Assembly: GCF_014652455.1 (NCBI RefSeq)
Contig: NZ_BMYV01000001.1
Span: 186,001 to 250,000 of the forward strand
DNA: 64,000 nucleotides
From: Litorimonas cladophorae
GTDB taxonomy: Bacteria; Pseudomonadota; Alphaproteobacteria; Caulobacterales; Maricaulaceae
Direction of reading: 5' to 3'
This document shows positions 7,102 through 56,593 of this stretch, piece by piece. The position numbers and the translations under genes were made by a program. Within the stretch, counting starts at the first letter, position 1. Every line of letters begins with the position of its first letter. The notes beneath the pieces were generated by a model. It saw only the letters and a program-made list of their open reading frames with translations. It had not been told where the DNA came from and did no database searches.

Positions 7102-9177
7102 ATGCAATCTTTCAGAACTTTTTTCTTTGCTTCTCTTTTCAGTCTAACGGCAGCATCAACGGCACTCGCACAAAATGTTAGGGATTATGTTGAGGTTCGA
7201 CCTCCCGCTAAATGGGTCGAGGTGCAATCTTTGCCGACAACGGTTTTTCCGGCGTTAGAGGAGCTAGGAAGTCGAACGCGATTGCTGTCTTATCAACATC
7301 GGATCGGCGAAACCTATCGCGATCGTTACACGCGCTTAGTTTATGATTTGAATTCGGCAAGTGCGATTGAAGATCGGGGGACGTTCGATGTCAATTTCGA
7401 TCCGACCTATCAATCTGTCATTTTGCACGAGGTTAAAATTATCCGCCCGGAAGGCGCGCGCAATGTGCTGGACCTAGACGAATTCGTTGTATTTCGGTCT
7501 GAAACGGATCGATCAAAAATGATGTATAATGGAGAGCTCACCATCAGCCTCGCGATCCCAGGTCTGCAAATTGGCGATCAATTAGATTATGCCTATACGG
7601 TCTCTGGCAAAAACCCGGCTCTTGGGTCAGGCTATGATGATTTTCAGACGCAATCATACTCTAATCCCGTCCACCGTCTCTTTTCTCAGACCCTTGTCGA
7701 AGAGGGTCTGCCCGTTTTCGTCCAAACACTTGATGGCGGGGAAATGCCAAGTGTCGAGAAGGATGGTGATACGACCAAAATTCGGTTTGTTCGCGATAAT
7801 GTTGCGCCCTTTACAGTCGATGATGACCGCCCAAATTGGGTGTATGGGTGGCCACTTCATCGCGTATCCAGCTATAACAATTGGCGCGATGTGGGGAACC
7901 ACTTTTCGCAATACTATAAGCGGGCCGAAACGCCTGCCGTCCGTGCCGTTGCGCAAAAAATCCGCGACGAAAACCCAGATAAGCCCGCCCAAGCGCGTGC
8001 CGCCCTCGATTATGTTCAGCGTTCCATCCGGTATGTGGCGCTTTCTATGGGCGAAGGCGGGTTCATCCCAAGGCAACCTGATCGTGTTTTAGATCGGCGA
8101 TATGGCGACTGTAAGGATGTCACGTTATTGTTGCTCTCTTTGCTCGCAGAACTTGATATCGAAGCTGATCCGATGCTGGTGGATACGGATGAGTTGGGCG
8201 CGGTTTTTGACGTGAATCCATCCTTGCAAGCTTTTGATCATGTTGTTGTAAGGGCAGAGGTCAATGGCACATTTTACGTCATGGATGCGACGCGTAATCC
8301 GCAGTTGGGCGACCTTTATCATTTTGATCAAGGTAATTTCGGACGGGGCCTTATCCTGCGTGACGGTGATTCCGAAGTCGTTGATCTGAAATCAACGGGC
8401 TATACTTATAAGGTCGAAGCCGTTGATCACTTCGATCTCGTCGCGGCACCAGGCAGCGTTTTATTCACTAATGAATTGACGTATCGCGGCGATGAAGCGG
8501 ACGACATGGTGGACTGGCAGGCCGCCGACGGATTGGAGTCCATTACAGAGTCTATCGCCAATTATATGCGAGACTTTTACCCAACGCTGACTGTCAAAAA
8601 GCCGACCGAGGTCGAGCTCGATAAGGAAAAGGGCGTTGCTGTCGTTCGTACAACATTTGATATCCCAAATGCATGGGACCCTGACCCCGATGACGGGCTA
8701 CAATACTTCAGGGTTCGACCTTACGAAATTCGGTCAGATTTGCCCCAATTCAGTGGCGCGGCGCGAACAACTCCATTTGGAATCTCTTACCCAAAATCCA
8801 CCCGTCAAATTTTGAAAATACAGGTCGATAAAGACTACACCTTCAGTGAAGGCGAGTATGAACATGTCAGTGACGCTTTTGCTTATAAGGAGTTAAATCG
8901 CTACGATACTGAGGCTTCGCTCTATACCGAGACTTATGTCTACCAAGCCAAGCGCGATCATATTCGCGTCGAGGACTTTAAGGCCGACATGGCCGCGATC
9001 AGCGATATTCGTGCCCGAATGGGAATTACGGTGCAAACGGGATTGGAAACGGATTCCGTTGCTGCCAAACCTGCGGGCGTGGGAAAGACCTTACCGATTT
9101 TGCTGATCTTAATGCTGACTGGACTTTTGGGCTGGCTTTTTGTCTTTCAAGGTAAGCGACAGCGCAAAAATAGCTAA
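7102..9177 (+). CDS. DUF3857 and transglutaminase-like domain protein, membrane anchored
   Basis: A 691-aa exported protein. An N-terminal signal peptide ends near STALAQ; a DUF3857 beta domain covers about residues 50-220; a transglutaminase-like domain follows (about 270-400) with the Cys in DRRYGDCKD, His in AFDHVVV and Asp in YVMDATRN forming the papain-like triad. A single membrane helix (LPILLILMLTGLLGWLFVF) and a basic tail close the protein, so the body faces the periplasm. Biochemical role in this family is not established; amide bond cleavage or crosslinking is expected. Confidence 0.85.
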   Translation: MQSFRTFFFASLFSLTAASTALAQNVRDYVEVRPPAKWVEVQSLPTTVFPALEELGSRTRLLSYQHRIGETYRDRYTRLVYDLNSASAIEDRGTFDVNFDPTYQSVILHEVKIIRPEGARNVLDLDEFVVFRSETDRSKMMYNGELTISLAIPGLQIGDQLDYAYTVSGKNPALGSGYDDFQTQSYSNPVHRLFSQTLVEEGLPVFVQTLDGGEMPSVEKDGDTTKIRFVRDNVAPFTVDDDRPNWVYGWPLHRVSSYNNWRDVGNHFSQYYKRAETPAVRAVAQKIRDENPDKPAQARAALDYVQRSIRYVALSMGEGGFIPRQPDRVLDRRYGDCKDVTLLLLSLLAELDIEADPMLVDTDELGAVFDVNPSLQAFDHVVVRAEVNGTFYVMDATRNPQLGDLYHFDQGNFGRGLILRDGDSEVVDLKSTGYTYKVEAVDHFDLVAAPGSVLFTNELTYRGDEADDMVDWQAADGLESITESIANYMRDFYPTLTVKKPTEVELDKEKGVAVVRTTFDIPNAWDPDPDDGLQYFRVRPYEIRSDLPQFSGAARTTPFGISYPKSTRQILKIQVDKDYTFSEGEYEHVSDAFAYKELNRYDTEASLYTETYVYQAKRDHIRVEDFKADMAAISDIRARMGITVQTGLETDSVAAKPAGVGKTLPILLILMLTGLLGWLFVFQGKRQRKNS

Positions 9178-9250
9178 AAGGTCACGTCCCTGTGTTTTGA
9201 CCTTTCTCTCTCAAGAGGTAAGAGCGTCGCCTGAACGACGAGGTATTTTC

Positions 9251-10423
9251 ATGGACGACAATTTTCAAAACGTAGACGCAACGAACGCCGATGTTCGGGA
9301 TGATGTCCAAGATCGTTATGGCGCGGGGGCGCAGGCTGTCGAAGCGGCGCTTTGCTGTCCTGTTGATTACAATCCGCAATATCTCGAAATTATCCCACAA
9401 GATGTCTTGGACCGCGATTATGGCTGTGGTGACCCTTCGCGCTATGTACGCGAAGGCGAGGTGGTTTTGGACCTTGGTTCTGGCGGCGGTAAAATTTGCT
9501 TTATCGCGTCACAAATCGTTGGGCCCAAAGGCCGCGTCATTGGCGTGGATATGACCGATGAAATGCTGGCATTGGCCCGTGAGAATGCCCCGATTATTGC
9601 CGACCGCGTGGGCTATTCAAATGTTGAATTCCGTCGTGGCCATATTGAAGATTTAAAACTTGACCTAGATGCCTTGGATACATGGTTGGCGGCGAACCCC
9701 GTTGGGTCTGCCAAAGACATGGAGCGGATGGACGCTGAAATCCTGCGCCTGAAATCCGAAATGACGATGATCCCCGATAATTCGGTTGACGTGATTGTTT
9801 CGAATTGTGTTTTGAATCTCGTCTCTGATACTAAAAAGAAGCAGCTCTTCGCGGAAATGTTTCGCGTTTTGAAAGTCGGCGGTCGTGTCGCTGTCTCTGA
9901 TATCATTTCTGATGAGGATAGCCCCGAAGCGTTAAAGCAAGACGCGCGTCTCTGGTCTGGCTGCATCTCTGGGGCCTTGACTGAGCTTGGATTTGTTACG
10001 GCGCTGGAAGAGGCGGACTTCCACGGGATTACGCTGGATAAATTTGAGGCCGAGCCTTGGCAGATCGTCGAAGGCATTGAATATCGCTCCGCAACATATC
10101 TCGCCTATAAGGGCAAGCAGGGTGAATGTTTGGAGAAGAACCAAGCCGTCATTTACAAAGGCCCCTGGCGTCAGGTGCAAGATGATGACGGCCATGTCTT
10201 TATGCGCGGCGAACGCTCAGCGGTCTGCGAGAAGACGTTCAAACTGATGCAGCGTGAACCCTATGCCGATATGTTTTTCTCTATCGAGCCGAGTGTTGCG
10301 ATCACCGACCGCATCGAATGGCCAACTGAAGATTGCGGTGTCCGACGCCGTGATCCGCAAGAAACAAAGCAGGGTGCGCCAAAGCTGACGACGGACCCAA
10401 GCCAGAGCGCGTCCTGCTGCTAG
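9251..10423 (+). CDS. arsM: ArsM-like arsenite S-adenosylmethionine methyltransferase
   Basis: The start is the ATG at 9251 with GAGG 7 nt upstream, giving 390 aa. The class I methyltransferase motif is VVLDLGSGGGKICFI. All four Cys positions known to bind As(III) in ArsM have candidates: CCPVDY, DYGCGDPS, SNCVLNL and SGCISGAL. The C-terminus ends in a vicinal SASCC pair, seen in many ArsM proteins. It would methylate arsenite to volatile or less toxic species, or feed arsenosugar synthesis. No arsR, arsB or arsC lies nearby, so it is an orphan arsenic gene. Methylation of another thiol-binding metalloid is possible. Confidence 0.8.
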   Translation: MDDNFQNVDATNADVRDDVQDRYGAGAQAVEAALCCPVDYNPQYLEIIPQDVLDRDYGCGDPSRYVREGEVVLDLGSGGGKICFIASQIVGPKGRVIGVDMTDEMLALARENAPIIADRVGYSNVEFRRGHIEDLKLDLDALDTWLAANPVGSAKDMERMDAEILRLKSEMTMIPDNSVDVIVSNCVLNLVSDTKKKQLFAEMFRVLKVGGRVAVSDIISDEDSPEALKQDARLWSGCISGALTELGFVTALEEADFHGITLDKFEAEPWQIVEGIEYRSATYLAYKGKQGECLEKNQAVIYKGPWRQVQDDDGHVFMRGERSAVCEKTFKLMQREPYADMFFSIEPSVAITDRIEWPTEDCGVRRRDPQETKQGAPKLTTDPSQSASCC

Positions 10424-13453: not shown

Positions 13454-15328
<1,875 letters not shown>

Positions 15329-15336
15329 ACCCACTG

Positions 15337-15362
15337 CGGGCGTGTTTACCTTGCCACGCCCG
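15337..15362 (+). terminator. Possible terminator hairpin after thiC
   Basis: CGGGCGTG (15337-15344) and CACGCCCG (15355-15362) form an 8-bp stem with a 10-nt loop just after thiC. The following bases, CGTTTCGG, are not a good T run, so termination may be partial. Confidence 0.45.
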
Positions 15363-15404
15363 CGTTTCGGCCGCATGAAAGCTGTATAACGAAAGGACGA
15401 AACT

Positions 15405-15743
15405 ATGCCTTATACGACTTTTTTGAAGCTGACGCTCTGTGCCGGGGCCATGCTTATCCTCGCGGGATGTGCCACGCCCGCGACGACCACAACCGCCGCT
15501 GCGGCCAACACAACGGCGGTTGCCACGACGCCAAATGGCGCGGAACCCATGTTCACCGTCAACTACGTCAAAGCTGCCGATGCAGAGGCAGACCAAATCT
15601 GCAAAGAGCAAGAGATCGTTGGCTCCCGTTTCACGCGCACCCTGTGCGGGACCGCCGAACAATGGGAAGATGTCGCCACCGAGAACCGCAAACAGTTCAG
15701 AGACATCCACCGCAGATCGTCACAACAAACCCGCCCGAATTAG
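15405..15743 (+). CDS. Small lipoprotein, paralogue of the one at 19.7 kb
   Basis: A 112-aa lipoprotein (lipobox LAGC) with a Thr/Ala-rich linker and a compact C-terminal domain: ICKEQEIVGSRFTRTLCGT, then a Trp, then RKQFRDIHR. The same pattern (ICK-x5-GS-x-F-x4-C-x-T-x4-W ... DI-x-R) is found in the protein at 19680-20006, so the two are paralogues. The two Cys of the motif could form a disulfide in the periplasm. Function unknown. A run of ten G follows the last codons. Confidence 0.75.
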   Translation: MPYTTFLKLTLCAGAMLILAGCATPATTTTAAAANTTAVATTPNGAEPMFTVNYVKAADAEADQICKEQEIVGSRFTRTLCGTAEQWEDVATENRKQFRDIHRRSSQQTRPN

Positions 15744-15777
15744 GGGGGGGGGCTTCCGACCTAACGAAGCTTTAGCT

Positions 15778-15846
15778 GGCATGGATGAGATGTCCGAGAA
15801 GTTCGGGGGCCTTAGCGGCGAGATTTATTTGGAGACTGAGGGGTAA
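15778..15846 (+). pseudogene. thiC: Orphan copy of the thiC 3' end
   Basis: Translation gives [22 protein letters not shown] and a stop, matching the last 22 residues of ThiC ([21 protein letters not shown]). The first 26 bases equal thiC bases 15263-15288, the rest is diverged. Nothing upstream in this frame continues the thiC match, so it is a leftover of a second thiC 3' end, probably from recombination with a foreign or duplicated copy. It lies at the left edge of the AT-richer cassette. Confidence 0.8.
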
Positions 15847-15931: not shown

Positions 15932-16738
15932 ATGCTTAAAGAATATTCCAACGCTCCTATCAAAGAGGTCACTATGGCCTTACACTTTGACCCAATTAGC
16001 AAACTTAATGTTGTTAAGTTGGTTTCAAATTGTCTTGAGCTGAAAGAGGCCTACGGAGGCTTCAGTCTGGAAGAAGTCCCATTTGTTGAAGTCTCTGCGG
16101 AAACGGAAGCCCGAAAAAATTCAGTTCAGCACTTTAAAATAGCTCATGGCGTTCCCGAATTGGCTTGCCGGTTGATTTCGGAAGATCGAACAATATCAGT
16201 AGTTGTCCAAAACAATCGGTTCTCTGCTACTTGGGTCCGACAAAACGATGGCGGTTATCCTCGGTACGATGAACTAAAGCCGGCGTTTTTCGATAAGTTT
16301 AATCAGTTTAGAAAAATTGTTGAGCGTACGGGCGGGCTTATTCCCAAAATCACGCAATGTGGTATTCAATATGTGAACCATATACTTGATGACAATCTTG
16401 ACGGATTCAAATCATTTAACTTCTTAGATATTTCTGAATTTCAAGACCATGAAGGTGTGAAATTTTCTACGAGTCAAAGGCTTACAAATGAAGAAGAGGT
16501 TGGTAGGCTCTACATGGAGGCTCAAACTGTTTTTTCTCTGGCCCCTGATGTGGCTGGAAACATACGAGAAAGTCGTAACTTAAAATTATCTTTAACTTTC
16601 AGGGGCAAGCCTAAACTTAGTGGCATTGATGGTTGTGCTCCGTTTTTAGATCGTGGTCATCATGCAATCGTTTCCACTTTTTCTAAAAGCTTGAGCGATC
16701 TTGGTCGAAAGCAATTTGGAGAAAGCCAACGTGGTTAG
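15932..16738 (+). CDS. TIGR04255-like protein, first gene of a three-gene cassette
   Basis: A 268-aa soluble protein. The opening YSNAPIKEVTMALHFDP, the middle GIQYVNHIL and the end LDRGHHAIVSTFSKS with a final KQFGE fit the TIGR04255 family of sporadic, uncharacterised proteins as I know it. No enzyme motif is visible. Codon use is clearly AT-richer than in thiC. Its stop overlaps the start of the next gene by 8 nt, so the cassette is tightly coupled. Function unknown. Confidence 0.7.
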   Translation: MLKEYSNAPIKEVTMALHFDPISKLNVVKLVSNCLELKEAYGGFSLEEVPFVEVSAETEARKNSVQHFKIAHGVPELACRLISEDRTISVVVQNNRFSATWVRQNDGGYPRYDELKPAFFDKFNQFRKIVERTGGLIPKITQCGIQYVNHILDDNLDGFKSFNFLDISEFQDHEGVKFSTSQRLTNEEEVGRLYMEAQTVFSLAPDVAGNIRESRNLKLSLTFRGKPKLSGIDGCAPFLDRGHHAIVSTFSKSLSDLGRKQFGESQRG

Positions 16739-17264
16739 TCTTTTAAGTGATATTGTTTATAAAGAGTCCACCGATAGAGGCTTGATTAACCCCGCAAAGA
16801 CTGAATACGTCGGAGGGTTGATTATACACAACAGCAGAAGTGATTGGGATGCGTATCTGAGAACGGAGCTGAATTCACTTTGCAACTTATCGGAGGATTG
16901 GGATGGTTATGGTAGTCCTGCTGTATCGTTTGAAAATGCTGAATTGGGCTTACACCTCCTTAATTCGTTAAAACAAATTGTTGATAATAGCAGCGCTGAA
17001 ATAAGGTCGTACATTCCATCCTCACCATATCTTGTCCCTGTTTCGGGTGGAGCGCTGCAAGCGGAATGGCATTTGGATTCTTATTTTATAGAACTGTTCT
17101 TTGACTCTGATGAGCCAATCCAAGCGATGTTTTACTCATCGGATGATATGATTGATGAGTCTATGGAAATAGATTGTTCTGAAATTCAAACAAATATTAG
17201 GCCTCTAGTTAACTGGTTTAAGCGTGTTCATGAGTTGAATAATGCCAGAGCCATTGCCGTATGA
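16731..17264 (+). CDS. Unknown protein with NWDGYG-type motif, second gene of the cassette
   Basis: I place the start at GTG 16731, with TTGGAG 8 nt upstream; a longer frame opens at 16701 inside the preceding gene. The 177-aa product has LNSLCNLSEDWDGYGSPAVS, then a helical stretch, then a strand-rich part reading VPVSGGALQAEWHLDSYFIELFF. A short Leu/Trp-Asp-Gly-Tyr-Gly segment followed by a Gly-Gly-x-x-Gln-x-Glu-Trp strand recurs in uncharacterised proteins encoded in such cassettes, from memory. It overlaps the third gene by 23 nt. Function unknown. Confidence 0.65.
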   Translation: MVSLLSDIVYKESTDRGLINPAKTEYVGGLIIHNSRSDWDAYLRTELNSLCNLSEDWDGYGSPAVSFENAELGLHLLNSLKQIVDNSSAEIRSYIPSSPYLVPVSGGALQAEWHLDSYFIELFFDSDEPIQAMFYSSDDMIDESMEIDCSEIQTNIRPLVNWFKRVHELNNARAIAV

Positions 17265-17673
17265 TGACGCGAGGAATGTTATTCCTCACGATTCGAGAGA
17301 AATAGTTGATGATGATCTTTTGATCCGCGGCATCCCCGAGGGCCAGATTAAGAATGGAAGAATATCTTCTGGCGCATTCCGAAGCTCGTCGAAGGAAAGA
17401 GACCCTCATCGCGGGATGAGTATAGATATAGAGAAGATTGTTAGCGAGGAAAGTTATCAGTCTGGTCCGTATGTAGGATCCGTACAATTCGCTGTTAGCA
17501 TTCCAAGAGGACATAGCCTTTTGGTCGGATGTGACCCCTTACCTGAAAATGAAGCTCATGGACAGATTTGGCGTGTGGAGGACGGGCCTAAACCTATGAC
17601 AGGCGGTCAGACAAGATCTATTCACAGGTCATGTGTTTGGCATGTTGAGATCGAAGGTGTGAGCATTCGATAA
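17242..17673 (+). CDS. Unknown 143-aa protein, third gene of the cassette
   Basis: A soluble protein starting at ATG 17242 within the end of the second gene. It begins with an acidic DDDLLIRGIPEGQI segment, then SSGAFRSSS, then MSIDIEKIV and a His-containing C-terminal part (EAHGQIW, CVWHVEIEG). The order LLRxIP - SSxAF - DPHRGMSIDI - HAxxxG is one I associate with small unknown proteins that follow NWDGYG proteins. Conserved His, Arg and Asp leave room for an enzyme or nucleic-acid role, but none can be named. Confidence 0.6.
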   Translation: MPEPLPYDDARNVIPHDSREIVDDDLLIRGIPEGQIKNGRISSGAFRSSSKERDPHRGMSIDIEKIVSEESYQSGPYVGSVQFAVSIPRGHSLLVGCDPLPENEAHGQIWRVEDGPKPMTGGQTRSIHRSCVWHVEIEGVSIR

Positions 17674-17837: not shown

Positions 17838-18060
17838 ATGATTGGATATATCACACTCGGCACATCGGATATTCGGCGCGGAGCCGCTTTCTACGACGCA
17901 TCGCCAAAGAAATGGATACGCCGCGTGTGTAGGGGGCGAAGAGGATGGCTTTATCGCCTGGGGGAAACCTAAGGGATTGAGCCAGTTTACTACTCTCCGC
18001 TCTGCCTCGCGCTGGGCTTTTCTGTCACGACTCTTGTTTGGACATCAAGATCGCTTTGAT
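17838..18060 (+). pseudogene. Broken VOC/glyoxalase-family gene
   Basis: An ATG at 17838 with GGAGG 7 nt upstream starts MIGYITLGTSDIRRGAAFYDA, a typical N-terminus of the vicinal-oxygen-chelate family. After about 21 codons the reading frame must shift to continue as NGYAACVGGEEDGFIAWGKP, which also fits the family. The end of the domain is missing. It is a frameshifted and truncated remnant beside the accessory cassette; a sequencing error alone would not restore a full gene. Confidence 0.6.
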
Positions 18061-18133
18061 GTGGGCCAGATAAACATCCCATTAACCACATTTCGGAACG
18101 TGAATGAAACCATCCTCCGTTAGGGCCTCGCGT

Positions 18134-18562
18134 ATGGCGCTAGTTCAATATATATACACTTCCATTCTGATGACGGAGTTATCGGCGCAGAACGCGTTTG
18201 ATACGTCAACGATGAGCACGAAAATTTGTGAGCAATTTGGCATTACGGGGCGCGTGTTTGCCAATCGGCAAAAGGCACTGGCGATTACCGAAGGGCCCGA
18301 AGAGATTATCGCAAAATATTTTCAATCTGTGAACCGCGACCCGCTCGCGCAGAAAATCCTGCTTCATGTCCAACGTCCCATTCAGACGCGCGAATTTAAC
18401 GATTATTCCGTTTGGCTGAACTTGGGGCAGGCGTTTGAATTTAGCCGCTCTGTGCGGAAATTGACGGCGGCGTCGTTAGAGTCGGCCTGGCCAGACAACC
18501 TGTCCGCCAAGGTCCGAATTATGGCTGATGCCTATTTGGACCCTGAGATGTTGGCGGCATAG
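18134..18562 (+). CDS. Degenerate BLUF-like protein
   Basis: A 142-aa protein (start at ATG 18134) with the BLUF layout: QYIYTS, FDTSTM, FGITGRVFAN, ITEGPEEIIAKYF, then FNDYSVW. Aligned by eye with the BLUF protein at 11.4 kb, the Tyr remains but the flavin-binding Asn becomes Cys (CEQFGITG) and the Gln becomes Ala (ALAITEGP); the Trp/Met pair is also changed. It probably no longer binds flavin and may keep only the protein-contact role of the fold. No partner gene is evident. Confidence 0.65.
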   Translation: MALVQYIYTSILMTELSAQNAFDTSTMSTKICEQFGITGRVFANRQKALAITEGPEEIIAKYFQSVNRDPLAQKILLHVQRPIQTREFNDYSVWLNLGQAFEFSRSVRKLTAASLESAWPDNLSAKVRIMADAYLDPEMLAA

Positions 18563-19503: not shown

Positions 19504-19679
19504 ACTGTCCCGCTTTATTACCTCGCGGCTGACCTAATATTGGGCAGTCAGCCTATTCCCATGCCCAATGAATCCCTCGTCCGATCTGTATATCTGACCG
19601 TCACGCATGGGCGATTGCAATTTATAAATCTCCGCTTAAAAACAAGGGCCAATCAAAACCCCCCTTGAAGGAGTGCCAT

Positions 19680-20006
19680 ATGCCATCAATGAAATTTACC
19701 CTTATCAGTCTCAGCGCTTCCGCGCTTTTGGGCCTCAGCGCCTGCGCCACGCCGGCGACGCAAACTGCGTCCGCACCTGCCGCGACGACATCTGCTAAAA
19801 CGACAGCCATGACTGACGCACCAACAGAGACAGCCTCTGCTGAAGATTCCAGCCGCCTGATTTGCAAACGTGAAGCTGTTGTCGGATCTAAGTTCAAAAA
19901 GAAAATTTGCGCAACACAAGACGTCTGGGACGAGCGCGCGGCAGCCGACCGTAAAACTGCTGGCGATATCCAGCGCGGCGGTCAATCGCCTGGCGTTACA
20001 TACTAG
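19680..20006 (+). CDS. Small lipoprotein, paralogue of the one at 15.4 kb
   Basis: The start is ATG 19680 with GAAGGAG 6 nt upstream, giving 108 aa with lipobox LSAC. After an Ala/Thr-rich linker the C-terminal domain reads LICKREAVVGSKFKKKICAT, then Trp, then GDIQR, the same pattern as the 15405-15743 protein. It is expected in the cell envelope. Function unknown. Long unexplained structured DNA precedes it. Confidence 0.75.
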   Translation: MPSMKFTLISLSASALLGLSACATPATQTASAPAATTSAKTTAMTDAPTETASAEDSSRLICKREAVVGSKFKKKICATQDVWDERAAADRKTAGDIQRGGQSPGVTY

Positions 20007-56519: not shown

Positions 56520-56593
56520 TGGAGGTACCACCCGGAATCGAACCGGGGTACACGGATTTGCAATCCGGTGCGTCACCACTCCGCCATGGTACC
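56520..56593 (-). tRNA. tRNA-Cys (GCA)
   Basis: On the minus strand a full cloverleaf is drawn: acceptor GGTACCA with TGGTACC, anticodon loop TTGCAAA (anticodon GCA), T arm CCCGG-TTCGATT-CCGGG, discriminator T and an encoded CCA at the 3' end (56520). It reads Cys codons UGC and UGU. Confidence 0.95.

Follow-up and report, generated by a model that had tools for sequence, protein, structure and literature searches.

A recurrent three-gene cassette joining a TIGR04255 protein to a predicted ADP-ribosyltransferase-fold protein in Litorimonas cladophorae

Beside thiC in the genome of Litorimonas cladophorae lies a compact operon of three overlapping genes that recurs, in the same order, in distantly related bacteria. 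The window, meaning the whole stretch of 64,000 nucleotides that was analysed (contig NZ_BMYV01000001.1, positions 186,001 to 250,000), carries this trio on its forward strand. Gene 1 (positions 15932-16738) encodes a 268-residue protein of the TIGR04255 family and is proposed as a sensor or stabiliser. Gene 2 (16731-17264) starts with GTG, encodes a 177-residue protein with a DWDGYG motif and is the putative antitoxin or adaptor, while gene 3 (17242-17673) encodes a 143-residue protein with a predicted ADP-ribosyltransferase (ART) superfamily fold and is the candidate effector or toxin. The finding is real and recurrent and, judging from the modelled fold of gene 3 and the sequence relatives of genes 2 and 3, the trio probably represents a phage-defence or toxin-antitoxin system not yet characterised. 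More specifically, it may be a mobile three-component conflict module, similar to a toxin-antitoxin pair with an extra regulator and an ART effector, a reading whose chances we consider evenly balanced.

The original prediction, made from the sequence alone, had described an acquired block of three overlapping genes and offered a loose guess of "defence, toxin-antitoxin or stress." The open reading frames (ORFs) give the same coordinates and the same overlaps (8 nucleotides between genes 1 and 2, and 23 between genes 2 and 3), and the motifs that it singled out (DWDGYG, GGALQAEWH, DDDLLIRGIP and SSGAF) are all present. Its interpretation is supported, and its guess can be narrowed because gene 3 is predicted to have an ART-superfamily fold and genes 2 and 3 appear to be relatives of PDC-M32, a two-gene phage-defence candidate in PADLOC-DB to which both of them point. 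In the literature searched, no description of a trio with an ART-fold effector was found, and novelty is claimed within that scope; the same literature yielded no mention of "TIGR04255" or of a DWDGYG or NWDGYG motif, and no function for PDC-M32.

Recurrence of the trio

Public genomes were scanned with a three-sequence alignment of gene 1 (seed loci L072, L087 and L090), which returned 27 loci, and a viral scan added one more. All 28 loci carry the trio in order, as do all 25 that remain when the seeds are set aside, with a trio being called from same strand, downstream position, size and alignment with genes 2 and 3. By longest reading frame, genes 1 and 2 overlap at 26 of the 28 loci and genes 2 and 3 at 23. 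Because the query came from trio loci, the complete count shows that this clade keeps the trio and not that every TIGR04255 gene does so.

By record title, most of the loci are alphaproteobacterial, and others belong to Chromatiaceae, Methylomagnum and Rugamonas. The trio is also found in two Planctomycetota metagenome-assembled genomes (MAGs) and one Actinobacteria MAG, which, with Pseudomonadota, makes three phyla. MAG records may be mis-binned; the Rugamonas and plasmid records are not labelled as MAGs. The plasmid in question, a 306-kb element of Mycobacterium paragordonae, carries the trio after mobF, and its genes 1, 2 and 3 match profiles built without it at E-values of 2e-43, 2.4e-15 and 3.4e-8. 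The proposal that the three gene types occur together in unrelated bacteria is borne out. A complete trio also lies on a viral contig (L099:5947-7740), upstream of a gene for 1007 residues that looks by eye like a phage tail tip; searches of phage records for the viral-contig gene 1 and for M32B, the second gene of PDC-M32, found none.

A less biased sample consists of 24 TIGR04255 loci from the class, sorted by reading. Four are strong trios, the Litorimonas genome included, and 12 are trio-like in size and order with weak or no support from hidden Markov models; when gene 3 of five of these 12 was set as a group against the main family, the E-value was only 4.5e-4, at a probability of 33%. 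The other eight have different partner sets (L002, L003, L004, L005 and L021) or are without partners or cut (L007, L011 and L020). In one of these sets (L004:1366-3732, L005 and L021:1123-3750), the TIGR04255 gene is accompanied by a helix-turn-helix protein (PF01381 in L004) and by a protein of 240-257 residues with an SQTCDIVR-like motif, which has no Pfam family in L004 or L021. In another (L002:270-2286 and L003:243-2253 (minus strand)), it is joined by proteins of about 215 and of 221-233 residues, the latter with a DGLTCATFI motif and no Pfam family, and resembling a papain-like hydrolase by eye only.

Profiles of the other two genes were run against 265 class genomes, with a first look that, in the rows shown, scored at most 15 candidates for gene 3 or 13 for gene 2 per genome. 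The gene-3 profile gave five matches, namely four full trios and a copy at a contig end (G070), and the gene-2 profile gave five as well, the same four trios and G163. The genes on either side of the one in G163 resemble those of a trio by eye, and they fall below the gene-3 profile and TIGR04255.

The three proteins and the relation to PDC-M32

The model of gene 3 is confident, with a mean predicted local distance difference test (pLDDT) score of 93 and a predicted template modelling score of 0.86. When it was compared by VIA-align with 803 solved chains, 28 reached a Z-score of at least 2, and the 25 entry rows listed (Z 2.4-6.2) include Tpt1/KptA, AvrPphF ORF2, Tse2, CC0527, DarT and TreTu, as well as SdeA, C3 exoenzymes, RhsP2, protein 6b and a fungal NADase. 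Of these, we take CC0527, Tse2, AvrPphF and 6b to be members of the ART superfamily; we presume the same of the fungal NADase with less certainty. The best match is to Tpt1/KptA (Z 6.2 over 90 residues, with a root-mean-square deviation of 3.1), rows above Z 4 span 87-109 residues, and no clearly unrelated fold is seen among the 25 listed. Against the viral library BFVD, Foldseek placed gene 3 with two unnamed proteins (E-values of 0.003 and 0.025), and viral Tpt1s appear in the same list at 0.77 and 1.2. From the model, the fold of gene 3 is most likely that of the ART superfamily.

Across 29 gene-3 sequences from three phyla, with a mean column identity of 42%, the only invariant positions are R29, S60, P99 and H106, and the window copy keeps R29, S60 and H106. 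In the model, the first core strand holds R29 and the second S60, while H106 opens the strand on which classical ARTs bear the catalytic glutamate; this placement in an active site comes from the order of the secondary-structure elements and not from residue-level superposition. Classical ART triads are R-S-E or H-Y-E, and gene 3 matches neither. Among its most divergent relatives, the arginine is missing in L006 and the histidine in L009. A tblastn search of plasmids with gene 3 of L019 found none, and scanning viral sequences with an alignment of gene 3 (A5) was likewise negative. Three Mesorhizobium plasmids hold a stretch similar to the C-terminal third of gene 3 (L101:5001-5165 in NZ_AP023252.1), with 40% identity over 55 residues, 38% coverage of the query and no listed gene; it is perhaps a relic and was not used.

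Neither Pfam nor PHROGs assigns a family to gene 2 or gene 3, and the only NCBIfam match of gene 2 is far below its cut-off (11.6 of 223 bits), with none for gene 3. The window's gene 2 matches PDC-M32A at an E-value of 8e-4, confined to positions 296-359 of about 375, and 28 of the 29 members of its family match the C-terminal part of PDC-M32A, the best at 9.1e-13. On these alignments, the homology of gene 2 to the C-terminal part of PDC-M32A looks solid. Gene 3 appears to be a distant relative of PDC-M32B. The window copy matches M32B weakly (E-values of 0.009-0.016), and at most two of the 29 gene-3 proteins reach 0.01 with any single M32B model. Profile-profile comparison by hhalign, however, gives 3e-6 at a probability of 88%, and the gene-3 profile finds six of eight M32B-like genes among the ORFs of 13 loci (2e-5 to 0.0024). 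M32B has its own invariant residues, R9, S37 and H89, in seven sequences. The window holds no full-length M32A gene, since its match is C-terminal only, and gene 1 matches no PADLOC model; the trio seems related to PDC-M32 but distinct from it. An M32B profile found none in 289 class genomes, a null that by the tool's own warning proves nothing. The PDC names reportedly come from a preprint on embedded defences, a work that PMC13092281 cites.

A search for M32A in 398 genomes of the phylum found 11 places in 10 genomes. One place, in G128, belongs to a trio; among the remaining ten, eight adjoin an M32B-like gene, one (L071) does so by motif only and one (L065) has none. L071 may, by motif, hold the pair of genes 2 and 3 alone. 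In L062, L063 and L064, the M32A-M32B pair lies between hsdM-like and hsdS-like genes, with one extra small gene in L062, and in L066 the order is M32A, M32B and then an hsdS-like gene; these hsd genes were read by eye and not by family scan. In L068 (positions 8338-9651, minus strand), the gene-2 domain is fused to N-terminal helical repeats (weak PPR/TPR), and an M32B-like gene comes next; this may be another exchange of sensor.

Gene 1 belongs to TIGR04255 as had been proposed, scoring 55.1 bits against a curated cut-off of 30 over profile positions 2-251 of 252, and it has no Pfam or PHROGs match. Five divergent gene 1s that were tested, the plasmid copy included, also pass (50.8-65.5 bits). 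The window copy is itself divergent, with 18-28% identity to aligned relatives; a scan of public genome contigs with it found nothing, and tblastn against plasmids found none. Its model (pLDDT 87) resembles guanidino kinases, including McsB, at Z-scores of up to 9.5 (183 residues, deviation 4.1). Guanidino kinases and a single AdoMetDC-like domain make up the listed fold matches; SecB is not among them, which excludes nothing. The best-conserved positions across 47 TIGR04255 sequences, an alignment from which L014 (in-frame TAA) and L020 (partial) were excluded, are Y109, Y147, F250, P42 (Gly in the window), F19, P9 and E12, and the highest conservation of any arginine is the 70% of R192. Because no arginine is conserved above about 70%, we read the modelled gene 1 as a reused guanidino-kinase-like fold and not as a kinase.

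An acquired block beside thiC

The trio block is taken to be a horizontal acquisition, since TIGR04255 is present in one of the 60 genomes of relatives searched, that of Litorimonas cladophorae itself, and the other 59 lack gene 1. The only TIGR04255 copy of the genome is the one next to thiC, and in the class the family is found in 20 of 385 genomes, this one included. Composition sets the block apart as well. At 42.4%, its GC content is lower than that of the window (51.4%) or of thiC (56.6%), and GC at third codon positions is 35, 38 and 41% in genes 1, 2 and 3 compared to 66% in thiC, in line with the AT-richer codons of the original prediction. None of 588 stretches of equal length that lie clear of the block is as AT-rich, the lowest GC content among them being 46.8%.

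The flanks, all read on the forward strand, agree with the scar and the broken gene that had been predicted. Upstream lies thiC (13457-15328), an ORF named by the original prediction and its sequence, and then a relic of a second, diverged thiC 3' end (15774-15846; a 22-letter peptide), which blastn aligns with the thiC tails of congeners up to position 15842. Downstream is a relic of a VOC/glyoxalase-fold gene (17838-17970), frameshifted into two frames and shorter than the intact copy of congener G016, which matches PF00903 and which located the relic by tblastn (E-value of 2.6e-11). A BLUF-domain gene follows (18104-18562; PF04940, E-value of 7.2e-10). The layout nearest to an empty site is that of congener G015, in which, by layout and blastn, a BLUF-like gene comes directly after thiC.

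Of 18 genomes from the genus, 11, Litorimonas cladophorae included, yielded the C-terminal part of thiC, and the 3' end of the gene looks like a variable insertion site (window 15250-15846; L107, L116, L120, L123 and L124). Repeats or relics of the thiC tail occur in four of the 11 (this genome, G003, G008 and G010), while G006 has an ORF with GmrSD_N (type IV restriction) directly after thiC and G014 has a gene for an AAA ATPase. Two small lipoprotein-like genes flank the cassette (15405-15743 and 19665-20006), each with an Ala/Thr-rich leader and with C-terminal regions that are similar by eye. An Rfam scan of the window matched only a distant tRNA (56523-56593).

Proposed mechanism, alternatives and known systems

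What we infer about NAD+ (nicotinamide adenine dinucleotide) chemistry, toxicity, the direction of inhibition, the trigger and a defence purpose can be put together as follows. Gene 3 would be the effector, with NAD+ predicted to bind in a pocket lined by R29, S60 and H106. Gene 2 would be its cognate partner and probable antidote, made in amounts coupled to gene 3 through the overlapping frames, and is probably labile to proteolysis. Gene 1 may sense the trigger or stabilise gene 2. When a signal of phage attack or another stress acts on gene 1, gene 3 would be freed and, once released, would modify a target or cleave NAD+. Tentatively, and with somewhat less than even confidence, one could go further and consider the R-S-H ART effector with its DWDGYG partner as an exchangeable core that sits on different sensors. 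These would be TIGR04255, with its guanidino-kinase-like fold put to use in sensing, the N-terminal region of M32A where type I restriction operons are concerned, or helical-repeat extensions. This would be a new class of tripartite immunity, of which TIGR04255 and PDC-M32 are two faces of one system.

The lability of gene 2 is suggested by its C-terminus. Nineteen of 29 gene-2 proteins end in Ala-Ala, compared to 19 of 431 ORFs outside the trios (mechanical ORFs of at least 150 residues from the same loci, trio ORFs removed). Where genes 2 and 3 overlap (21 pairs), the final two residues of gene 2 have 0.28 and 0.45 bits and the gene-3 residues on the same bases 0.28, 0.72 and 0.99, so that the gene-2 residues vary less than, or as little as, those of gene 3. 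The conflict-module reading also draws on the restriction setting of M32A-M32B, by eye, and of one TIGR04255 trio, by PADLOC profiles.

Of course, several observations count against the conflict-module reading. Ten of the 29 gene-2 proteins lack the Ala-Ala end, among them the window copy (Ala-Val) and those from Planctomycetota, Actinobacteria and the viral contig. Wherever genes 2 and 3 overlap, the bases of this tail also code for part of gene 3. Part of the pattern may be forced, since the tail bases are mostly shared with gene 3, and one of the eight gene-2 proteins outside the 21 overlapping pairs ends in Ala-Ala (L089). In gene 3, the third place of the triad is His and not Glu, Foldseek alone gave no confident PDB match (best E-value of 0.53), and a Z-score of 6.2 is modest, within the range that the tool calls common. 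Searches of PDB sequences found no relative with a solved structure. The G163 genome has a gene-2 relative without detectable TIGR04255 or gene 3. Neither result that would have refuted the original prediction, families seldom adjacent beyond close relatives or gene 1 below the TIGR04255 cut-off, was obtained, though TIGR04255 overall has other partners or none at eight of the 24 class loci. Finally, ties to defence neighbours come from two of 28 loci. PADLOC profiles place the actinobacterial trio L098 between the hsdS and hsdR genes of a type I restriction system and the trio L074 next to a type IIG enzyme, so the adjacency to known defence genes that had been put forward for checking holds to that extent. 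These neighbours come from 155 that were picked, of which the nearest 107 were scanned and 10 traced to loci, with no control set. Most of the 25 Pfam families shown for the 107 are metabolic, and they also include a transposase and ArdC-type domains; for PADLOC, 25 of 149 families are shown in the tally. We set aside a "defence island" reading because 10 of the 107 neighbours were traced, single matches to Aga_Nuclease and MTase_II were not assigned to loci and there was no control.

The same evidence can be read in other ways. The gene-3 fold may serve as a binding module without NAD+ chemistry, with the trio being a travelling operon for housekeeping or stress regulation. The histidine at the third place and the divergent relatives that lack the Arg or the His would fit this, but it is unlikely given that R29, S60 and H106 are invariant in 29 sequences as divergent as these and that R, S and H are invariant in the seven PDC-M32B sequences too. 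One could also see the trio as a selfish addiction module, or as an anti-host or anti-defence tool of plasmids and phages, instead of a host defence. The copy next to mobF on the Mycobacterium plasmid and the viral-contig copy beside a large tail-like gene speak for such a role, as do Sinorhizobium prophages in which PDC-M32 is reported by PADLOC in the one paper found to name it (PMC12429752). The mostly metabolic neighbours and the single copy beside thiC speak against it, leaving this reading just as doubtful as the one before it.

Restriction systems suggest a further role, in which the core of genes 2 and 3 guards a type I complex, monitoring it through the N-terminal part of M32A or through TIGR04255 and firing when phages inhibit it. 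The M32A-M32B pairs amid hsdM-like and hsdS-like genes and the restriction neighbours of L098 and L074 are what one would expect of a guard; with such neighbours tied to two of 28 trio loci, and no restriction genes seen on reading the ORFs in the 12-22 kb region around the window trio, we think a guard role rather improbable. Least probable is that gene 1 is an active guanidino-kinase-like enzyme, akin to the protein-arginine kinase McsB, that marks gene 2 or gene 3 for ClpP. Although its top structural matches are guanidino kinases (McsB among them, Z of about 9, Foldseek E-value of 3.6e-4), an AdoMetDC/prozyme chain outranks them in Foldseek (1.4e-4), a sequence search with the gene-1 profile found no PDB chain, and the conserved positions of TIGR04255 lack a strong arginine.

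If the trio is a conflict module, TIGR04255, a sporadic named family without a function, gains a testable role and a link to the unexplained candidate PDC-M32, and the effector is offered with named residues and a specific predicted chemistry (NAD+-dependent, on an ART fold). Among known families and systems, TIGR04255 itself (uncharacterised, "sporadTIGR04255" in NCBIfam) has gene 1 as a full-length member, but unlike in the window trio its genes also occur with other partners or with none. PDC-M32 (PADLOC-DB 2.0) shares with the trio its gene order and the invariant R, S and H of gene 3 and M32B. It differs in the N-terminal part of M32A (about residues 1-260), which is absent from the trio and in whose stead there is a separate TIGR04255 gene, and in its restriction genes, which were tied to two of 28 trio loci. 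Tpt1/KptA, an RNA 2'-phosphotransferase, is the closest fold match of gene 3 among the listed rows, but gene 3 is a single domain that matches mostly Tpt1 residues of about 82-183, with 5-13% identity. DarTG and other ART toxin-antitoxin systems likewise pair an ART-superfamily effector with a partner gene (DarT has a Z-score of 4.6 to gene 3), whereas the putative gene-3 effector has His at the third active-site place; the Pfam scan at an E-value of 1 gave no family, and so no macrodomain match, for genes 1 and 2.

A further parallel is CmdTAC, a toxin-antitoxin-chaperone system of phage defence with an mRNA ADP-ribosyltransferase; its CmdA antitoxin has LAA as its last residues and is broken down by ClpP, and the enzyme is set free once the antitoxin is lost (PMC11618068). 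Both have three components, an ART-fold effector (predicted in the trio), a small partner, often with an Ala-Ala end in the trio, and a third component that could sense or stabilise. They differ in that CmdTAC has its toxin first, going by its name, whereas the trio has its candidate effector last; that CmdC is SecB-like whereas gene 1 is a 268-residue TIGR04255 protein; and that CmdT uses Y41 as its inferred catalytic residue. The parallel is drawn in layout and not in homology. If the core truly swaps sensors, the trio would stand beside CmdTAC and DarTG as a good case of modular evolution in bacterial immunity.

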